From a virus: 31,627 nt of DNA. Positions 1 to 31,627 of the stretch are shown in pieces. Location of the stretch: IMG/VR virus record IMGVR_UViG_3300030012_000506, positions 1 through 31,627 of that record, one strand, 5' to 3'. The notes under the pieces were generated by a model. It saw nothing but the letters and a program-made list of their open reading frames with translations, searched no databases and was not told the DNA's origin. How positions within the stretch are numbered: the first letter of the stretch is position 1; each line of letters opens with the position of its first letter. The translations under genes were made by a program, and so were the position numbers.

Positions 1-204
1 GAACGCCAGTGTAGAAAGTTTGGATACAAGCCTGATGACATCCTTGACTGGTTCCGCGAACGTTCATATAGATGTTGTTCAAAACGCCGTGGTTGGATAG
101 AAGGAGGCTGGAGCAAGGGTAAGGCGGATATGGACTTGTTCTTTGTACCAGAAGAATTTGGCACCGTGTTGGAACCCCGCCTGGAACTATTTCAAGAACA
201 GTAA
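1..204 (+). CDS. FkbM-family methyltransferase, C-terminal fragment
   Basis: The window opens inside this gene; 67 codons in frame 1 run to the TAA at 202-204. The fragment aligns by eye (about 40% identity) with the C-terminus of the full-length FkbM methyltransferase at 30347-31135: both have RQCRKF, then DW, YR-CSK, and the shared MDLFFVP followed by a Leu/Phe-rich end. FkbM enzymes are SAM-dependent O-methyltransferases, often acting on sugars or polyketides. The SAM-binding part lies outside the window, so catalytic competence cannot be judged. Repeat copy 1 begins at the next base after the stop. That the two genes are paralogues is direct; the substrate is unknown. Confidence 0.8.
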   Translation, partial: ERQCRKFGYKPDDILDWFRERSYRCCSKRRGWIEGGWSKGKADMDLFFVPEEFGTVLEPRLELFQEQ

Positions 205-310
205 CCCCAGTTTGGGCGAGATGAGTGACAACGCCACTCCGCAGGGGCCACCGTTCGCCACCGTAGGACGGTCTCTCAGGTCAGAAGGCTAGGTCACCGT
301 TGGTCTCACA
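205..310 (+). repeat. Structured ~100-nt repeat, copy 1 (candidate RNA element)
   Basis: The first 48 nt (205-252) and a second block of 36 nt (258-293) are identical to copy 2 at 31494-31582, separated by a variable 5-nt segment. Visible structure: hairpin GAGTG 223-227 with CACTC 235-239, and hairpin ACCGT 260-264 with ACGGT 268-272. GAGA 218-221 can pair with TCTC 274-277. CAACG in the first loop (229-233) can pair with CGTTG at 298-302 as a pseudoknot; CGTTGG stays conserved between copies while bases just before it vary. The CTCTCAGG segment recalls the glycine riboswitch core, but the match is partial. The element starts immediately after a stop codon in both copies. Strand is assigned from that context only. 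Confidence 0.6.
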
Positions 311-363: not shown

Positions 364-392
364 AGTATAACACGGTCAAGAGCCGTTGTCAA
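364..392 (-). promoter_or_regulatory. Sigma70-like promoter, leftward
   Basis: On the minus strand TTGACA (392-387) and TATACT (369-364) are separated by 17 nt, a near-consensus pair. Downstream comes GGAGTAAAAG and an ATG at 344 opening a five-codon ORF (MVILT, 344-327). Transcription would then read antisense through repeat copy 1. No real leftward gene lies between this promoter and the window edge, so the product may be a small RNA or a leader for a gene outside the window. Confidence 0.6.
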
Positions 393-1066: not shown

Positions 1067-1829
1067 TCAAGCCTTTTATGTTTACGAGGGCGTTTGCTAC
1101 TGTCTTTGCGGTTATTCTCCACATAGTTGCTACACAGTCTTGGCATTGTCTATGTACAGTATAGCAGGGGCCATGACGTTCATAATCATATATGTTGGCT
1201 TGTGTGTCATATCCTAGGCGGCGATAGTCTGTACAGCTTCCCCAAATTGTAACGCAGTCTGTGCCTGTGTATGCTGAAGCGTGATGCCAAAATCCATCTG
1301 TTGTAACTACTGCGTCAGCTCTTGCTACCACTGCCAAACTACTTCTTATATTGTCTGTTGTATAAGTGTGTACACCTTTGTATGTTGCGGGTCTTTCTTC
1401 ATGTGTTAGGCGAACTAGATCCCAATCATAGTCTGATAAGATGTTTGCTAATCCTTGCCAATGATACCATGTTTTGTTTACATCATGATGACTGCCTTGT
1501 CCTTTAGGGTCTGGACATAACAGTACGAACTTGTTGTGTCTTGATTCAATATCATGTACTAGGTCCCAGTCTGATCCTTTACAAATGTCTGTTATTGGTG
1601 TTGTAGGAGGAGTAGGTGCCCATCCCGTAAACTGGTACCAACGTGCCCAACGATCATCTTTGTGTTGTAGTTCATCTAATGGCACGCCTTTTGTTTGTAC
1701 AAACGCCAAGTGTTTCCATAAGCCTTCACTTGCCCTATGAGGTATAGGTCTTGTTTTCCTAGTAGGTGTTACTGTACATTGCTGTTGTTCTGCGTCTCTA
1801 ATCCACAGTAGATCGTCACCGTATCCCAT
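1053..1829 (-). CDS. GT9-like (heptosyltransferase-type) glycosyltransferase
   Basis: 258 residues. The N-terminus starts GYGDDLLW, similar to the glycine-rich opening loop of GT-B enzymes. The C-terminal half contains ADAVVTTDG-HHASAYTG-VTIWGSC (about residues 170-205), the pattern of GT9 heptosyltransferases, where an acceptor/donor loop precedes a conserved His, a Gly and 'xxxWG'. It is shorter than typical GT9 proteins (around 320-350 residues), with a reduced N-terminal domain. It overlaps the amidotransferase stop by 14 nt and the next methyltransferase by 14 nt. Likely transfers a sugar in a phage-directed glycan pathway. Family assignment is fair; donor and acceptor are unknown. Confidence 0.6.
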   Translation of the reverse strand: MGYGDDLLWIRDAEQQQCTVTPTRKTRPIPHRASEGLWKHLAFVQTKGVPLDELQHKDDRWARWYQFTGWAPTPPTTPITDICKGSDWDLVHDIESRHNKFVLLCPDPKGQGSHHDVNKTWYHWQGLANILSDYDWDLVRLTHEERPATYKGVHTYTTDNIRSSLAVVARADAVVTTDGFWHHASAYTGTDCVTIWGSCTDYRRLGYDTQANIYDYERHGPCYTVHRQCQDCVATMWRITAKTVANALVNIKGLNDDT

Positions 1830-3441
1830 AGTGTTGTTTCCATTTCCCGTACATTTCCATTGCTGGTTGGTCCTTGGGTATCTGTCTCCATTGCTGTATT
1901 GGAGAGGTCCAACCCGTCTTTGATTTGTTTATGATGTAGTCTGGCAGTAGGTCTTTGTATGCTGTCTTGGTCATGCCCTTGCGTCCTAGTTCAACTTTTG
2001 CCTGTGGGTCTATGTTCATACAGTATGTCATTAACTGTTTACTTGCCCAGGGAAAACGTCCTTCCATTCCGTACAACATACCCAATCTATCATTACGGCG
2101 GAAGAAATCTTCCGCACAGTTACCTATTTGATCCATGCGTTGGTATGCCGCAAGTGCGTATGTGTGTTGTAGATTCTTGAAAGGTCCATGTGCTAGGAAC
2201 TCCGCTAGGTTGTCCTTGCTTATCTTTGTAGGTATGCGTGGTGGACGTACAAGTCTTGACAGCCATGCCCGTACTGTACTGCGATACTCTGGTTGAAAGC
2301 TCTTGTGTGTTGCTGTTTTGCTTTGGAACTTGAAGTAGGCAGGATAGCCCAATGTAAGTTCATCTCCCATGTCTCCTGCTAGGGTTATCACTGTACCAGC
2401 GTCTGCCATTGCTTTGTTTACCTGTTGATACATTGGTATTGACCAATTGTACAGTGGTTCCTCACAGGCTTGCCATGCTGAGTCAAGGAACTGTTCCCAA
2501 TCTTTCTGTGTGTGTAATACTTCCGTGTGTGTTGTGCCCAAGTGTTTAGCTAACTGTTTGGCACAGTCTGCGTCTGAATTGTAGTCTTCTCCGCCTTGTG
2601 GATTTGGTGATACCCTTGACGTAAATGTTCTTATGCCAGGCTCTATCTCCTGTGCGTGTAAGCCTACTATGGCTGAGTCCATGCCTCCACTTAGGAATAT
2701 ACCACGCTGTCTAACACCTCGCATACAACGGTGTACAGAGGCCTTTACCTGTTCAACAAACTCCTGTGGGCGAAAGTAATCTTCTTCAGTGCCTATTACT
2801 ATGTCTCTACGTTCTCCTACAAGTTCTGATCTACGAAACGTAAGTGTTTCTCCAGGCAGTACCTTGTATATGCCATTGTAAAATGAATATTGTGTAACGT
2901 TGAGTCCTGAATAGGCGAAACAGGCCTCCGCCATTGGATTCACTGTTTCGCCTCCGTGTATCAGTGCCTTTACTTCAGAAGCGAACTCTATTCCCTTAAG
3001 GCCTGAGTGACGATAGTACAATGGCTTGATACCCACGTGATCTCTTGACAGAGTTACGGTAAGTTTCTGTGAGTCCCAAAAGGCGAATGCGTGTTGGCTG
3101 TCAATCTGTTCAACAAATTGTAGTCCAAACTCATCTAGCCCCCATGCGAGCAGTTCAGTATCACACTGAGTCTTTGGTAGGAAAACTTTATGATATTTCG
3201 CACACAGCTCGTCATAGTTGAATATCTCGCCATTGTACACCAACACATTGCCCTTTGGTGTGCGCCAAGGCTGTGTTGACGTATGTGCTGAGTCTGTTAT
3301 AGCTAGGAGATTGTGTCCTAATGTTACACATTTGTTGTCTGTGTACACGGAGCTGGCATCAGGACCTCTATGACCGCATTTTACCATCATGTCTCTGACG
3401 TAGGTCTCATCAACCCAAGTTATACCGTAAACTCCGCACAT
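1816..3441 (-). CDS. asnB: Glutamine-hydrolysing asparagine synthetase-like amidotransferase
   Basis: 541 residues, close to the usual 550-630 for AsnB. MCGVYGIT places the catalytic Cys at position 2 of a class II glutaminase domain, which fixes the ATG start. The synthetase domain has the ATP pyrophosphatase loop FLSGGMDSA near residue 250 and a GDMGDE motif later. Both active sites look intact. AsnB makes asparagine from aspartate, glutamine and ATP, but homologues in surface-polysaccharide clusters amidate uronic acids; the GT9-like and methyltransferase genes coupled downstream favour that role here. No ribosome site precedes the ATG: the late-promoter octamer ends 6 nt upstream, so the mRNA may be leaderless. 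Confidence 0.88.
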   Translation of the reverse strand: MCGVYGITWVDETYVRDMMVKCGHRGPDASSVYTDNKCVTLGHNLLAITDSAHTSTQPWRTPKGNVLVYNGEIFNYDELCAKYHKVFLPKTQCDTELLAWGLDEFGLQFVEQIDSQHAFAFWDSQKLTVTLSRDHVGIKPLYYRHSGLKGIEFASEVKALIHGGETVNPMAEACFAYSGLNVTQYSFYNGIYKVLPGETLTFRRSELVGERRDIVIGTEEDYFRPQEFVEQVKASVHRCMRGVRQRGIFLSGGMDSAIVGLHAQEIEPGIRTFTSRVSPNPQGGEDYNSDADCAKQLAKHLGTTHTEVLHTQKDWEQFLDSAWQACEEPLYNWSIPMYQQVNKAMADAGTVITLAGDMGDELTLGYPAYFKFQSKTATHKSFQPEYRSTVRAWLSRLVRPPRIPTKISKDNLAEFLAHGPFKNLQHTYALAAYQRMDQIGNCAEDFFRRNDRLGMLYGMEGRFPWASKQLMTYCMNIDPQAKVELGRKGMTKTAYKDLLPDYIINKSKTGWTSPIQQWRQIPKDQPAMEMYGKWKQHYGIR

Positions 3442-18682: not shown

Positions 18683-20186
18683 CCTGATTATTCCCAAAGA
18701 AGTTTGCTATCTCTGGATGTAATTCTAATATCTGTTCGTTGGTATAACCTTGTTCTAACATTTCTCTCATATGTGCTATCATGTCCTGTGGATTTTCCAT
18801 AGGTGGATGTGTCATAGCTGTTTGTAAAGGTTGTTGAGGTGCCTCATATGGCTCCTCCATTATTGTTTCATATATTTCTTTGTCCAATGCGTCAACAATA
18901 TTAGGATCAGCAATATTTGCCTCCTTGGCTAATTTTAACATTGCCACATCATTTGCTTTGTCCTGTATTGAGAATGACCTAGCATATTCTATTTCACCAT
19001 TCCATACATTGCCTTGATACATTGCCCAACAACGCCAAATTTGTTCTTCAGCGTGTTCATAGTTCATTGCGAAGTCTGCCAATTTAGCATTAAGCATTTG
19101 GAACTCCGTTTGTAATCCTATACCTGACAAACGTCTGCTTTCAATAGAACGTATTCCTCCCAAACAGGCCATTCTATCAATTGCTTCTACCCTCTTATCC
19201 ATTGCGTTTATTAAGCTGTCAATACTTGCTCCATTAGGCTGTAGCAAATATGGTTTTAGTCCTGGATCAGCACCTTGTGGTATTTGTATGATGGATCCTG
19301 CTCCAGCCGCCGCTTCAACGCCTACTTCTTTTACAAGTGATGGATGGTTAGTTAGCCTAATAATTTGCTCCATCTCACTTGAATATTCATTTAATTCTTT
19401 TTGTATGTCTGCTATGTCGCCTACAGCACTTATACCTATGCCACGTATGTTTGAACGCTGTGCGTAAACACAAACAGCAGGAACCCTACCTAATTCATTT
19501 GGTATTGTTTCTACTAGGTCTGCTTCTTTTTCATCTGCGTCAATTAGGTATACATTTATTTCTTCAGGAGTGTATTCTCTAATGTACTGTTTGTTGTCTG
19601 CTATTTCTTCTTTAACTTTTAGGTAGTTAAGAACATACAATCCGTTGGTAAGTCTGTCATAGCTCCAATCCAATACGTTGTCAGGAGTAAACATAGAAAC
19701 GTAAGGACGTATTGACTGTTCTAGTTCATCTGCCCTTGTTCTTGTTACAACGTTTGGTTTATCTATAACAACCCAAGCATTACCATACACCATTGCGAAA
19801 GCACTTAGGTCTTTCATAAAACTTTCAAAGCTTCTGCCATCCAGGTCAGCATCTTTTAGGAATGGTTGTAGTCCAGGATCATTTGCTATTGATCCATAAT
19901 CTCTTTTTACTTCCTTACGGAACAAGAAACTGTTGTATATACCAACAACGCTTTTTACATGATTGTCTAGTCCTATCATGCGTAAACGTTTTTCGTAATC
20001 GTCTCTGCTTTCGTAATAGTATGGTTCTAGGTATTTGCCAGTGTAGTAGTCGTAACCACCTTGGAAACTGTCTCCTAAAAACAACCATCTGTTTATGTAG
20101 TGTTTGTATGCTGTATGTGATTCAACCAAATAATCTATATTTTGTACTGAACCACCTTTTATTATTCTGTCTCTTATTGCTGGCAT
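18675..20186 (-). CDS. Portal protein
   Basis: 503 residues, the usual length for SPP1/HK97-type portals. N-terminal YKHYINRWLFLGDSFQGG and a following KRLRMIGLDNHVKSVVGIYN suit the DUF4055-like portal group; the stretch SFMKDLSAFAMVYGNAWVVI (about 134-153) is a typical portal wing/stem helix. The C-terminus is Gln/Met/Pro-rich. It follows the large terminase by a one-base overlap (TAATG). Forms the dodecameric DNA channel to which terminase and neck dock. Confidence 0.85.
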   Translation of the reverse strand: MPAIRDRIIKGGSVQNIDYLVESHTAYKHYINRWLFLGDSFQGGYDYYTGKYLEPYYYESRDDYEKRLRMIGLDNHVKSVVGIYNSFLFRKEVKRDYGSIANDPGLQPFLKDADLDGRSFESFMKDLSAFAMVYGNAWVVIDKPNVVTRTRADELEQSIRPYVSMFTPDNVLDWSYDRLTNGLYVLNYLKVKEEIADNKQYIREYTPEEINVYLIDADEKEADLVETIPNELGRVPAVCVYAQRSNIRGIGISAVGDIADIQKELNEYSSEMEQIIRLTNHPSLVKEVGVEAAAGAGSIIQIPQGADPGLKPYLLQPNGASIDSLINAMDKRVEAIDRMACLGGIRSIESRRLSGIGLQTEFQMLNAKLADFAMNYEHAEEQIWRCWAMYQGNVWNGEIEYARSFSIQDKANDVAMLKLAKEANIADPNIVDALDKEIYETIMEEPYEAPQQPLQTAMTHPPMENPQDMIAHMREMLEQGYTNEQILELHPEIANFFGNNQDG

Positions 20187-21436
20187 TAGCTATATCTCCT
20201 GTTATGTGTACTACCAGAAAATGCCCAACGTTGTGGTTCTGAAGTAGTGTGTTCTGTTCTAAGTGGGAACAAGAAGTCACACAAATAACCAACGGCATCT
20301 GCCATATGGTCTAATTCACCGTCCTTTTCAATTACGGACGTACCTGGTTTGTATACCATCTTTTCTAAACTACTTATAATGTTTCTACACTTAGGGTCAA
20401 CGAACAAGGTGCGTGTTCCCTGCGTGTTCTTTAATTTTGCGTTTACAGAGTTTACCCTGTCTCTGATCGCTGTGTGACTGTTTCTGACCTTTACTGTGAA
20501 TCCTGCGTTTTGTAGGATAGAAATATCTGTGCGTCCACCAGCTGATGTTTTTCTTTGTCTACCTGCTGGATCTGGATACATTATTATTCTTGAATTTGGA
20601 TATCTACGTTTTATTTCATCACAAGCTTCATCTGTGTTTGAGCCTCTAATACATATCTCATCTATAAAGTTTATTGTGTTGCCTTCAATAACTGATATTG
20701 CTACACTCATTGGATCAATGTTAAAGTCTATGCCGCAATGTATTTCTCTTGTGTCCATATTGTTACAAGGCATAATAGTTTGTTCTCTGTCAAAGTTGTA
20801 ATAAACAACACCACTATAGGTTGTAAACGTTGCCAAGTATTCTTGTTCAAACGTTCTTTCATCCATATCCCTTTTTGCCGCTTCAACTTCTGTAGCAGGA
20901 ACTTGTCCACCTTCTACAGTTGTGTATGTAAAACTTTCCCAGTCATTTGTTATGCCTGCCATTGAATACATTTCATGGCTCCATGATCCTACGCCTCTTG
21001 GTGTGCCTAAAAACAATGCGTGTCCATCCTTATCTGATAGGGTTGGTCTAAGCACTTCTGTAAATGCTTTTGGTTCAATGTCTTGAAATTCATCTAACAC
21101 TAAAAAGTCCAATCCAACTCCTCTCAAACTGTCAGGAGCATCTGCTCCTTTTAAATATATTTTACTACCATTCTTAAGACGTAAGTACATCTCAGCTTCA
21201 TTGGTAGCATCTACCCAACGCAAGGACTTTAATCTATCCTTTAGTTGGTCCCAAACAATGTTCTTTGCCATCCTGTAGCTGGGTGCTACATACCAAACCA
21301 ATTTATCTGGTTGGCTGGCAAAACGTGCCAATTCTCTCATTGCCACGTGTGTCTTACCAAATCTACGTCCAGTAACCGCTACGCGGAATCTGGCTTCTGA
21401 ATCACATATACTCTTTTGAGGGGTGCTCAAAGGCAT
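20186..21436 (-). CDS. terL: Terminase large subunit
   Basis: 416 residues. Walker A GRRFGKT at 23-29, Walker B FLVLDE at about 111-116, coupling motif FLGTPRG at about 151-157. The C-terminal RNase H-like nuclease has the acidic residues HCGIDFNIDP, MYPDP and DHMADAVGY. Both the ATPase and nuclease active sites look intact. It pumps and cuts DNA at the portal. Starts one base after the small subunit stop. Confidence 0.95.
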   Translation of the reverse strand: MPLSTPQKSICDSEARFRVAVTGRRFGKTHVAMRELARFASQPDKLVWYVAPSYRMAKNIVWDQLKDRLKSLRWVDATNEAEMYLRLKNGSKIYLKGADAPDSLRGVGLDFLVLDEFQDIEPKAFTEVLRPTLSDKDGHALFLGTPRGVGSWSHEMYSMAGITNDWESFTYTTVEGGQVPATEVEAAKRDMDERTFEQEYLATFTTYSGVVYYNFDREQTIMPCNNMDTREIHCGIDFNIDPMSVAISVIEGNTINFIDEICIRGSNTDEACDEIKRRYPNSRIIMYPDPAGRQRKTSAGGRTDISILQNAGFTVKVRNSHTAIRDRVNSVNAKLKNTQGTRTLFVDPKCRNIISSLEKMVYKPGTSVIEKDGELDHMADAVGYLCDFLFPLRTEHTTSEPQRWAFSGSTHNRRYS

Positions 21437-21757
21437 TTAGTCCTCCCAAGGTAATGGCATTTTATTTTCACTGTCCTCTGGTGTATCCTTCATACCAAGG
21501 TACTGCTTTGATAAGAAAATTTGAATCCTTGTGTCCCCGTTCATTGCCTTTTCCCACATAGCTCGCCTTAATGTTTTTTTGCCTTCTTGTTTGCCTTTGT
21601 CTAATATACTTCCAAATCTTTTTCTTAAAGTTGCGGCAGTTGTTCCAACTACCTCAGCAATCTCTTGATCTGAGCATTGGATACAAGACAGTTTGTACAC
21701 AAGATCTCTATCTATGGTCTTGTATTTCCTGTTTGTATTTTGCTCTTGTTTTGACAT
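21437..21757 (-). CDS. terS: Terminase small subunit
   Basis: 106 residues. A helix-turn-helix-like region, SDQEIAEVVGTTAATLRKRF (about 29-48), is followed by helices of the oligomerisation core and a short acidic C-terminal tail (EDSENKMPLPWED). The usual role is recognising the packaging site and regulating the large subunit. Located directly upstream of the large terminase, abutting it. Confidence 0.85.
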   Translation of the reverse strand: MSKQEQNTNRKYKTIDRDLVYKLSCIQCSDQEIAEVVGTTAATLRKRFGSILDKGKQEGKKTLRRAMWEKAMNGDTRIQIFLSKQYLGMKDTPEDSENKMPLPWED

Positions 21758-30024: not shown

Positions 30025-30363
30025 ATGATAGATAAATGGCGAGACGCCGCAAAACTACAAAACGTAATAATCAAAGAAGAAGGCAAGATTGACCGCAATG
30101 ACAAACGCATATGGGGACTGGTATTACATGAGTGGGACAATGAAGATTGGATGGAAGTACTCAAGCCAATGTCAACACTGATTCAGCATTATCCTGAATT
30201 CGCAGAGCCTTTCAATGTTACAGCAATCCGTGAAGCTATGGAAGCCATTGAGGACAACTGCCAATACCATTCAAGAGTATTGGACACCAAACCACACAAA
30301 AAGAAGGCGTGGAAAGCTCTTATGACTGCGAGAGAAGTTTACAATAATGCGAAAAAACAATAA
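30025..30363 (+). CDS. Plus-strand protein, unknown function
   Basis: 112 residues from ATG at 30025, chosen because AGGAG lies 7 nt upstream; an ATG 15 nt earlier has none. Mostly helical: IDKWRDAAKLQNVIIKEEGK, then LHEWDNEDWMEVLKPMSTLI, and a C-terminal helix ending NNAKKQ. No domain recognised. Overlaps the FkbM start by 17 nt. Because it follows a sigma70-like promoter it is likely expressed early. Confidence 0.75.
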   Translation: MIDKWRDAAKLQNVIIKEEGKIDRNDKRIWGLVLHEWDNEDWMEVLKPMSTLIQHYPEFAEPFNVTAIREAMEAIEDNCQYHSRVLDTKPHKKKAWKALMTAREVYNNAKKQ

Positions 30364-31135
30364 CATTGAAAGCATACAGTCACGTGACGGCAAAACATAT
30401 TGGATTGAACGGGGCGACACCATGTATGGCGAACGTCTCCGTCACGGACAGTATCAAAGCCGTAACTGGCGGTTTGCCCAAACACTGCTACAGAACACTC
30501 GCCGTTGTGTTGACATAGGATCCAATTCAGGACTCAACGCCATACACTATGCGGAAGTATTTGATTGGGTTGAATGCTTTGAACCCACACACCTTTGTCA
30601 ACAGTTATGGCACAACACCATAAGAGACAACGGTGTAACCAATGTGACACTACACACAGAAGCACTGGGTGAGGATGATCGTACAACTGACATAATTATC
30701 CACGACTGTAACAGTGGACACAACCATCTAGCACACTATGACAAGAATCCAAGAGCAAGAGGCACTGCTAGAACCAAGCAAACTGTACAACAAACCACAC
30801 TGGACTCATTTCATTTCACTGACGTTGACTTTGTAAAGATTGACGTTGAAGGATATGAACTGTTTGTGCTACAAGGCAGTGAACAAACTGTACAACTAAA
30901 CCGCCCCATACTACAGTTGGAAATAGTTGACCGTCAGTGTCGCAAGTTTGACTACAGTCGTAGTGACATAGCTGATTGGATGAAGAAAATGAATTATAGG
31001 TCTTGTTCAAAGCTGGGCACATGGGTTGACTTATACGACCACAAGGACATGAGAAACGAAATGGACTTGTTCTTTGTGCCTTGTGAAGCACAAACATTAC
31101 CACCAAAATTATCACTGTTTGAACAGGCCCTTTAG
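30347..31135 (+). CDS. FkbM-family SAM-dependent methyltransferase
   Basis: 262 residues. SAM motif VDIGSNSGLNA (about 55-65), CFEP (about 77-80), TTLDSF, and KIDVEGYE (about 164-171) followed by a Gly, all FkbM signatures. The family methylates hydroxyl groups of sugars and other acceptors. The C-terminus (RQCRKF, MDLFFVP) matches the partial gene at 1-204. Starts inside the previous gene; a rho-independent terminator follows at 31153. A glycan target is plausible given two glycan cassettes in the window. Confidence 0.88.
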   Translation: MRKNNNIESIQSRDGKTYWIERGDTMYGERLRHGQYQSRNWRFAQTLLQNTRRCVDIGSNSGLNAIHYAEVFDWVECFEPTHLCQQLWHNTIRDNGVTNVTLHTEALGEDDRTTDIIIHDCNSGHNHLAHYDKNPRARGTARTKQTVQQTTLDSFHFTDVDFVKIDVEGYELFVLQGSEQTVQLNRPILQLEIVDRQCRKFDYSRSDIADWMKKMNYRSCSKLGTWVDLYDHKDMRNEMDLFFVPCEAQTLPPKLSLFEQAL

Positions 31136-31152: not shown

Positions 31153-31186
31153 GGTAGCGAAGATTTTCCGCTACCTATCTTTTTTT
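31153..31186 (+). terminator. Intrinsic terminator after the FkbM gene
   Basis: GGTAGCG 31153-31159 and CGCTACC 31169-31175, with a 9-nt loop, then TATCTTTTTTT. The perfect 7-bp stem and U-run directly after the stop at 31135 make this a good terminator. Confidence 0.85.
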
Positions 31187-31254: not shown

Positions 31255-31491
31255 ATGACAACATACACAATGATTTCGCAAAACACAAAAACTGGCAAAA
31301 TTACTGAAAGCCAAACATATGACAACCTGCGAGATGCTGAAGAGCACTATCGCAACTACACCATGTCACCTCAGCACTATGAGAGCCACAGGCTGATTGA
31401 AACTACAGACACTGGTACAATCACAGTTCTTAAAAATTACAACTATTCACCTGAGGCGGTGCGTGATTATCAGGAACAATTCGCTGACTGA
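31255..31491 (+). CDS. Small plus-strand protein, unknown function
   Basis: 78 residues. The first 25 residues (MTTYTMISQNTKTGKITESQ and following YDNLRDAEEHYRNY) look like a compact alpha/beta domain. Thr- and Tyr-rich; no recognised family. Its own promoter and ribosome site (TAGGAG) indicate an independent early-type transcript. Repeat copy 2 begins two bases after the stop. Confidence 0.7.
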   Translation: MTTYTMISQNTKTGKITESQTYDNLRDAEEHYRNYTMSPQHYESHRLIETTDTGTITVLKNYNYSPEAVRDYQEQFAD

Positions 31492-31493
31492 TA

Positions 31494-31600
31494 CCCCAGT
31501 TTGGGCGAGATGAGTGACAACGCCACTCCGCAGGGGCCACCCTCCTCCACCGTAGGACGGTCTCTCAGGTCAGAAGGCTAGGCCATCGTTGGGGCCACGG
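31494..31600 (+). repeat. Structured ~100-nt repeat, copy 2 (candidate RNA element)
   Basis: Blocks 31494-31541 and 31547-31582 are identical to copy 1 (205-252, 258-293), with CTCCT in place of GTTCG between them. The terminal CGTTGG that could form a pseudoknot with the first loop is kept although the four bases before it differ (CCAT instead of TCAC). The following 20 nt diverge. No gene beyond it is visible because the window ends at 31627. Confidence 0.6.
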
Positions 31601-31627
31601 TTCAAAAAGGTTCTCTTACGGTGATCG

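Follow-up and report, generated by a model that had tools for sequence, protein, structure and literature searches.

The window, a single uncultivated virus record of 31,627 bases from metagenomic data, carries the same sequence near both of its ends, and the question is what this repeat does for the phage. The two copies (Table 1) form a direct repeat of 116 nt with 91% identity at a spacing of 31,289 nt, which is much stronger (E 2.5e-42) than any other repeat in the window. A sequence-only reading had described a real duplicated element of functional appearance, and the repeat bears this out. The same reading placed the copies after stop codons. This holds for both window copies (copy 1 begins directly after the TAA at 202-204 and copy 2 about 2 bases past the TGA at 31489-31491, both on the plus strand) and for the homologue L084, but not for all homologues: the element of L083 is crossed by an open frame.

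Portal, capsid and tail proteins are also encoded on the minus strand of the window. The first genes of the operon look like sugar transferases and have homologues among the glycosyltransferase and polysaccharide genes of phage DSL-LC06. A large part of the window proteins, not all, was scanned against PHROGs and Pfam and most are without annotation; therefore, the missing regulator and replication genes are weak evidence. DNA polymerase, helicase, primase and integrase are not recognised among the proteins scanned in this near genome-length window, and polymerase or replication genes are not recognised among the proteins scanned in these phages. The gene fragment at the start of the window gives no match in a family search, and its end resembles the end of the complete FkbM gene as judged by eye. 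We infer that the window is circular, and on this assumption its two copies flank one FkbM-like gene. Copy 2 is taken to be a duplication that arrived with the extra FkbM cargo gene, within the same transcript.

Table 1. Features of the window that bear on the repeat, in order of position.
Feature	Position	Strand	Remarks
3' part of FkbM-type methyltransferase-like gene	1-204	+	opposite to late operon
Copy 1 of repeat	204-319	+ as first found; functional reading direction minus	conserved core 204-276
Box B, copy 1	210-234	-	GCGTTGTCACTCATCTCGCCCAAAC; CTCATCTC 37 nt after TCCTAC
Box A, copy 1	258-275	-	GAGACCGTCCTACGGTG; family consensus GRGGGGCGTCCTACKGYG
Promoter TTGACA-17-TATACT, extended -10	364-392	-	reads into copy 1
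Long co-directional block, structural and cargo genes	557-29989	-	
Asparagine synthase-like gene, glutamine-hydrolysing, phage-borne	1816-3441	-	PF00733, PF13537
TerL	20186-21436	-	in block 557-29989
TerS-like gene	21437-21757	-	in block 557-29989
FkbM methyltransferase (PF05050)	30347-31135	+	in opposite-strand cargo island
Intrinsic-terminator-like hairpin	31153-31175	- (late strand)	between copy 2 and late operon
78-aa ORF	31255-31491	+	ends just 5' of copy 2; no family match
Copy 2 of repeat	31493-31608	+	conserved core 31493-31565
Box B, copy 2	31499-31523	-	
Box A, copy 2	31547-31564	-	

Homologues and conserved sequence

Neither a gapped pattern nor exact patterns of 33 and 20 nt taken from the window copies have a match in IMG/VR, and relatives were therefore fetched by their TerL. 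The nearest named TerL relatives are phage DSL-LC06 and the Pelagibacter phages HTVC111P, HTVC112P, HTVC202P and HTVC026P. A DNA comparison over 49 whole records gives three divergent homologues, and a profile built from these and from the fetched contig ends gives further ones. Scans of IMG/VR with promoter-plus-box and fixed-spacing patterns match almost only clade members and add L139, L140, L141 and L174; the first three are placed in the clade by shared operon genes, and L174 is taken in by its pattern.

BLAST against phage and plasmid records returns short chance matches only, and a tRNA search is negative. A pattern of promoter plus box A has 26 matches in GTDB genomes, where the downstream sequence is unlike box B, and the box-B pattern alone returns mostly unrelated contigs. 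In L043 and L089, about 9 kb upstream of TerL, a gene that was first suspected to be a terminase gene contains a similar string. The string is treated as chance, since its E is about 0.4 and the gene around it has a polysaccharide-type homologue in DSL-LC06. The element was not found in any isolate, all of its sequences are metagenomic and it has no entry in Rfam. As far as the collections and patterns searched show, it is confined to this phage group. The carriers are a clade of uncultivated marine phages with a terminase related to that of the pelagiphages.

The conserved unit is about 70 nt long. Comparison with about ten related records of uncultivated phages shows that it reads on the other strand from the one on which it was first found. 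It consists of two boxes, GGGGCGTCCTAC and TTGTnTCTCATCTC..TCAAAC.GG. The late-strand consensus is GRGGGGCGTCCTACKGYG, then a G-rich variable stretch, then TTGTnTCTCATCTCrnTCAAACyGG, and CTCATCTC stands 37 nt after TCCTAC across the aligned set of ten sequences. These ten distinct sequences are in register, with a pairwise identity of 46-80% (mean 59% vs 26% when shuffled). Under loose gap penalties 30 of the 45 pairs can score higher with a gap; the set is called ungapped because the boxes keep register, not because of pairwise alignment scores. The information content is 1.04 bits per column inside the core vs 0.24 outside, and per column it is nearly equal over all three codon phases. Many members have open frames on both strands (GRPTV... 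for the late strand and ...EMSDNATP...TVGR for the other), yet every frame is interrupted by stops in at least two homologues and the conservation lacks a codon-phase signal; therefore, a coding reading is rejected. Taken over the aligned homologues, the element is a non-coding, bipartite unit of fixed length on the late strand, and the length of this sequence of about 70 bases has been kept for a long time.

Folding and the riboswitch resemblance

The sequence-only reading had also proposed hairpins, a pseudoknot and a likeness to a glycine aptamer, and the homologues speak against each of these. Neither window copy folds better than its dinucleotide shuffles (z of -0.06 and +1.19). The GAGTG/CACTC stem is intact in the two window copies only; nine homologues retain 1-4 of its 5 pairs and have no consistent compensation among them. 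Substitutions that break the stems, named beforehand as evidence against an RNA, are therefore seen in the homologues. The distal CGTTG arm of the pseudoknot is outside of the conserved region, at a place where other phages have promoter sequence. RF00504 has no match at the gathering threshold, none around either copy with E relaxed to 10 and none in a dedicated search, and the window copies do not match any Rfam family. The glycine-like string CTCTCAGG is found in the window copies and is not conserved in homologues.

A structured RNA family is not supported either, since the RNAalifold consensus of the homologues has an energy close to zero for each strand (-1.25 / -0.69 kcal/mol for the late strand and 0.0 for the other). 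As far as ten sequences can tell, no secondary structure is conserved on either strand. Since there is no conserved fold and the stem is confined to the window, a DNA-level or unpaired signal is the simplest reading. An assignment to the 3' UTR of the preceding gene fails on orientation, which is reversed; the conserved neighbour is a promoter that reads from the other side, toward the structural genes. A DNA site had been among the three options left open; the RNA options are unsupported.

Promoter, genome layout and upstream region

A near-consensus sigma-70 promoter (TTGACA-17-TGnTATACT) is located directly upstream of the element and points to the 30-kb structural operon. A stricter scan finds no other near-consensus promoter on the late strand of the window. 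A sigma-70-type promoter, mostly with an extended -10, is present in every homologue with flanking sequence, and the element-linked promoter is among the best in the relatives. Box A follows the -10 box by 8-15 nt in the homologues and by about 90 nt in window copy 1; copy 2 has no promoter within the available sequence. The link between promoter and element is not circular, because four homologues (L083, L084, L085 and L174) were found by queries without promoter sequence.

Three records (G029, G040 and G035) look circular because of their terminal overlaps, which are exact in G029 (91 nt) and G040 (77 nt) and near-exact in G035, and each has one strong copy of the element. The order in these records is operon end, promoter, element, opposite-strand genes and operon, with a less clear-cut opposite-strand block in G040. 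The island beyond the element has variable opposite-strand cargo (FkbM methyltransferases and small ORFs) and also, from our own reading of the sequence, an HNH-like gene. A transcript from the promoter of the element must cross this opposite-strand island to reach the structural operon. The late-strand path to the operon in the window includes genes and at least one terminator-like hairpin (Table 1), which has a T run on the plus-strand side as well, after the FkbM gene. Terminator counts in the other genomes are weak, at or near chance, with a modest excess in L087 only; a good late-strand terminator is clear in the window only.

Motifs of the CACGGT/CACCRTG type are over-represented in the 600-800 nt that precede the promoter. 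CACGGT is observed 30 times vs 1.8 expected and occurs in 11 of 12 records, and most members have 7-13 CACCRTG/YAYGGTG repeats per ~800 nt vs a background of 1.3, with few of these iterons in L085, L141 and L139. In L174, four iterons spaced by about 11 nt (YAYGGTGATTY / CACCRTGAAAN) form an array 226-259 nt before box A, and L135 has an array of the same type 175-208 nt before it. The spacer between -35 and -10 contains a CACCGT/ATGGTG dyad in L087, L089 and L140; the dyad is partial in others and absent in L137/L139. Given the upstream motifs and the spacer dyad, the element forms the downstream end of an intergenic control region that is larger than the element itself.

A second conserved non-coding string, RGGCCCCACC, occurs at the end of the late operon (about 490-540 in the window) and at the same place in relatives, and in several members it is followed by CCTAAGYCTTTGAAAACCTT. 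The record ends of HTVC111P, HTVC202P, HTVC026P and HTVC112P (L171, L172, L173 and L170) have no recognisable copy of the element. At the same junction of operon end and opposite block, the pelagiphage isolates have a hairpin-like motif with a ccaacTCTCgCTga-like loop, followed by TCTATCT. Six variable pairs of its stem change together (GAGCCA/TGGCTC, GAGTGG/CCACTC, GACCCA/TGGGTC and AACTAT/ATAGTT). The two examples of this motif that were tested have no Rfam match at the gathering threshold, and single-sequence folding of the 026P copy favours a different pairing.

Candidate functions and known systems

The element probably helps to control the reading of the long structural-gene operon. Antitermination-like control is ranked first and is put forward tentatively. 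In this reading the element may be a DNA-level, promoter-proximal control site which modifies RNA polymerase for passage of the opposing island, and it would be the downstream half of the main late-promoter module in this phage clade. RNA polymerase would leave the promoter and meet both boxes, to which a factor of phage or host origin would be bound; the boxes would act at the DNA level or else as an unpaired signal. The bound factor would alter the polymerase such that terminators and the transcription of the opposing island are ignored. No Q-, N- or NusG-like protein is recognised among the proteins scanned (PHROGs and Pfam), where many genes are unannotated. It is rather doubtful that the element represents a new class of antitermination signal without RNA structure, bipartite, of fixed length and promoter-proximal, by which host RNA polymerase would cross the island and one promoter would serve a 30-kb operon in marine phages.

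The element could instead initiate packaging as a pac or cos site, where the terminase would bind the two boxes and cut in the spacer of fixed length; this is possible, but a less likely explanation. Two conserved boxes around a spacer that is fixed in length and variable in sequence, without RNA structure, are consistent with such a site, as is the single copy in each of the three circular-looking records. Several independent contigs also break off within the element: the end of G012 and the start of G008 fall in the spacer or box B, the end of G035 falls in the element too, and G044 begins at the apparent end of box B. By a rough estimate, 3-4 contig ends in 70 nt have a P of ~0.0005-0.01; however, the ends do not coincide but are spread over tens of bases, and assemblies could also be broken by flanks that are GC-rich or hypervariable. 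Contig ends in or beside the element are also listed for G041. The sites for pac and cos are usually at or near terS, whereas the TerS-like gene of the window adjoins TerL about 10 kb from the element, although proximity to terS is no absolute requirement. A packaging site would leave the tight promoter link unexplained, and a second cos site a short distance off would be costly. If the element is a packaging site, it supplies the genome end so far missing for this group of uncultured marine phages.

It is unlikely that the element is part of a replication origin, in which the promoter transcript, G-rich over the element, would prime synthesis through an R-loop and the upstream iterons would be the sites of an initiator. 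The CACCRTG/YAYGGTG repeats, with their arrays in L174 and L135, would suit this role, the promoter reads directly into the G-rich conserved stretch and replication proteins were not recognised among the proteins scanned. However, no initiator protein was found in the same scan, the GC skew is uninformative and tracks gene direction only, and the members with few iterons do not fit. Fixed spacing is also no known need of R-loop priming.

An operator, on whose two boxes a repressor or activator would control the promoter, seems unlikely too. Box A falls within the first transcribed bases, the conservation is at the DNA level and divergent promoters are nearby, but 70 bp with two dissimilar boxes would be a large site for a simple operator, and about 90 nt separate window copy 1 from its promoter. 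The separate iterons are the likelier regulator sites.

There is little to favour an attachment or recombination site for cargo cassettes, with opposite-strand genes ending at a copy of the element. The cargo beside the element varies between phages, and the window copies would flank the FkbM-like gene if the contig is circular; however, the circular-looking records have a single copy, integrase was not recognised among the proteins scanned and the conservation on the promoter side is left unexplained. A structured RNA, whether a riboswitch, a glycine-like aptamer or a 3' UTR-derived small RNA, is highly improbable, since the glycine resemblance noted earlier and the fact that a transcript could carry the sequence are set against the absence of any Rfam match or covariation, the broken stems and the opposite orientation.

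A plausible riboswitch call is thereby corrected, and the element is now defined by consensus, spacing, strand, promoter and clade. If antitermination-like or other control of late transcription applies, the element would explain how nearly all genes of these phages run from one host-type promoter through a variable cargo island.

Among known systems, the glycine riboswitch RF00504 shares the short string CTCTCAGG with the window copies only; unlike it, the element has no score in any search, does not keep the string and has no conserved stems. The element is like pac and cos sites in having DNA boxes at fixed spacing around a variable spacer, with some contig ends inside, and unlike them in being about 10 kb from terS/terL and beside a promoter. 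The put sequences are about 70 nt long and putL is just downstream of PL (PMC9378689). The element resembles the HK022 put RNA (putL) in its length of ~70 nt and its position just past a sigma-70 promoter that heads a long phage operon, but put acts as two RNA stem-loops and the structure of the element is not conserved. The Q system uses repeats between -35 and -10 and a signal in the initial transcribed region (PMC6606751). The lambdoid Q late-promoter module (QBE plus pause element) is similar in its conserved initial transcribed region and, through the spacer dyad of several members, perhaps in its -35/-10 repeat motifs; unlike in that module, the first ~60-70 nt of the transcript are conserved here, and a Q protein is not recognised among the proteins scanned. 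Since sequence, structure and proteins match neither putL nor the Q module, the likeness is one of analogy and not of membership, and what the element would share with lambda Q and HK022 put is their logic, not their sequence.
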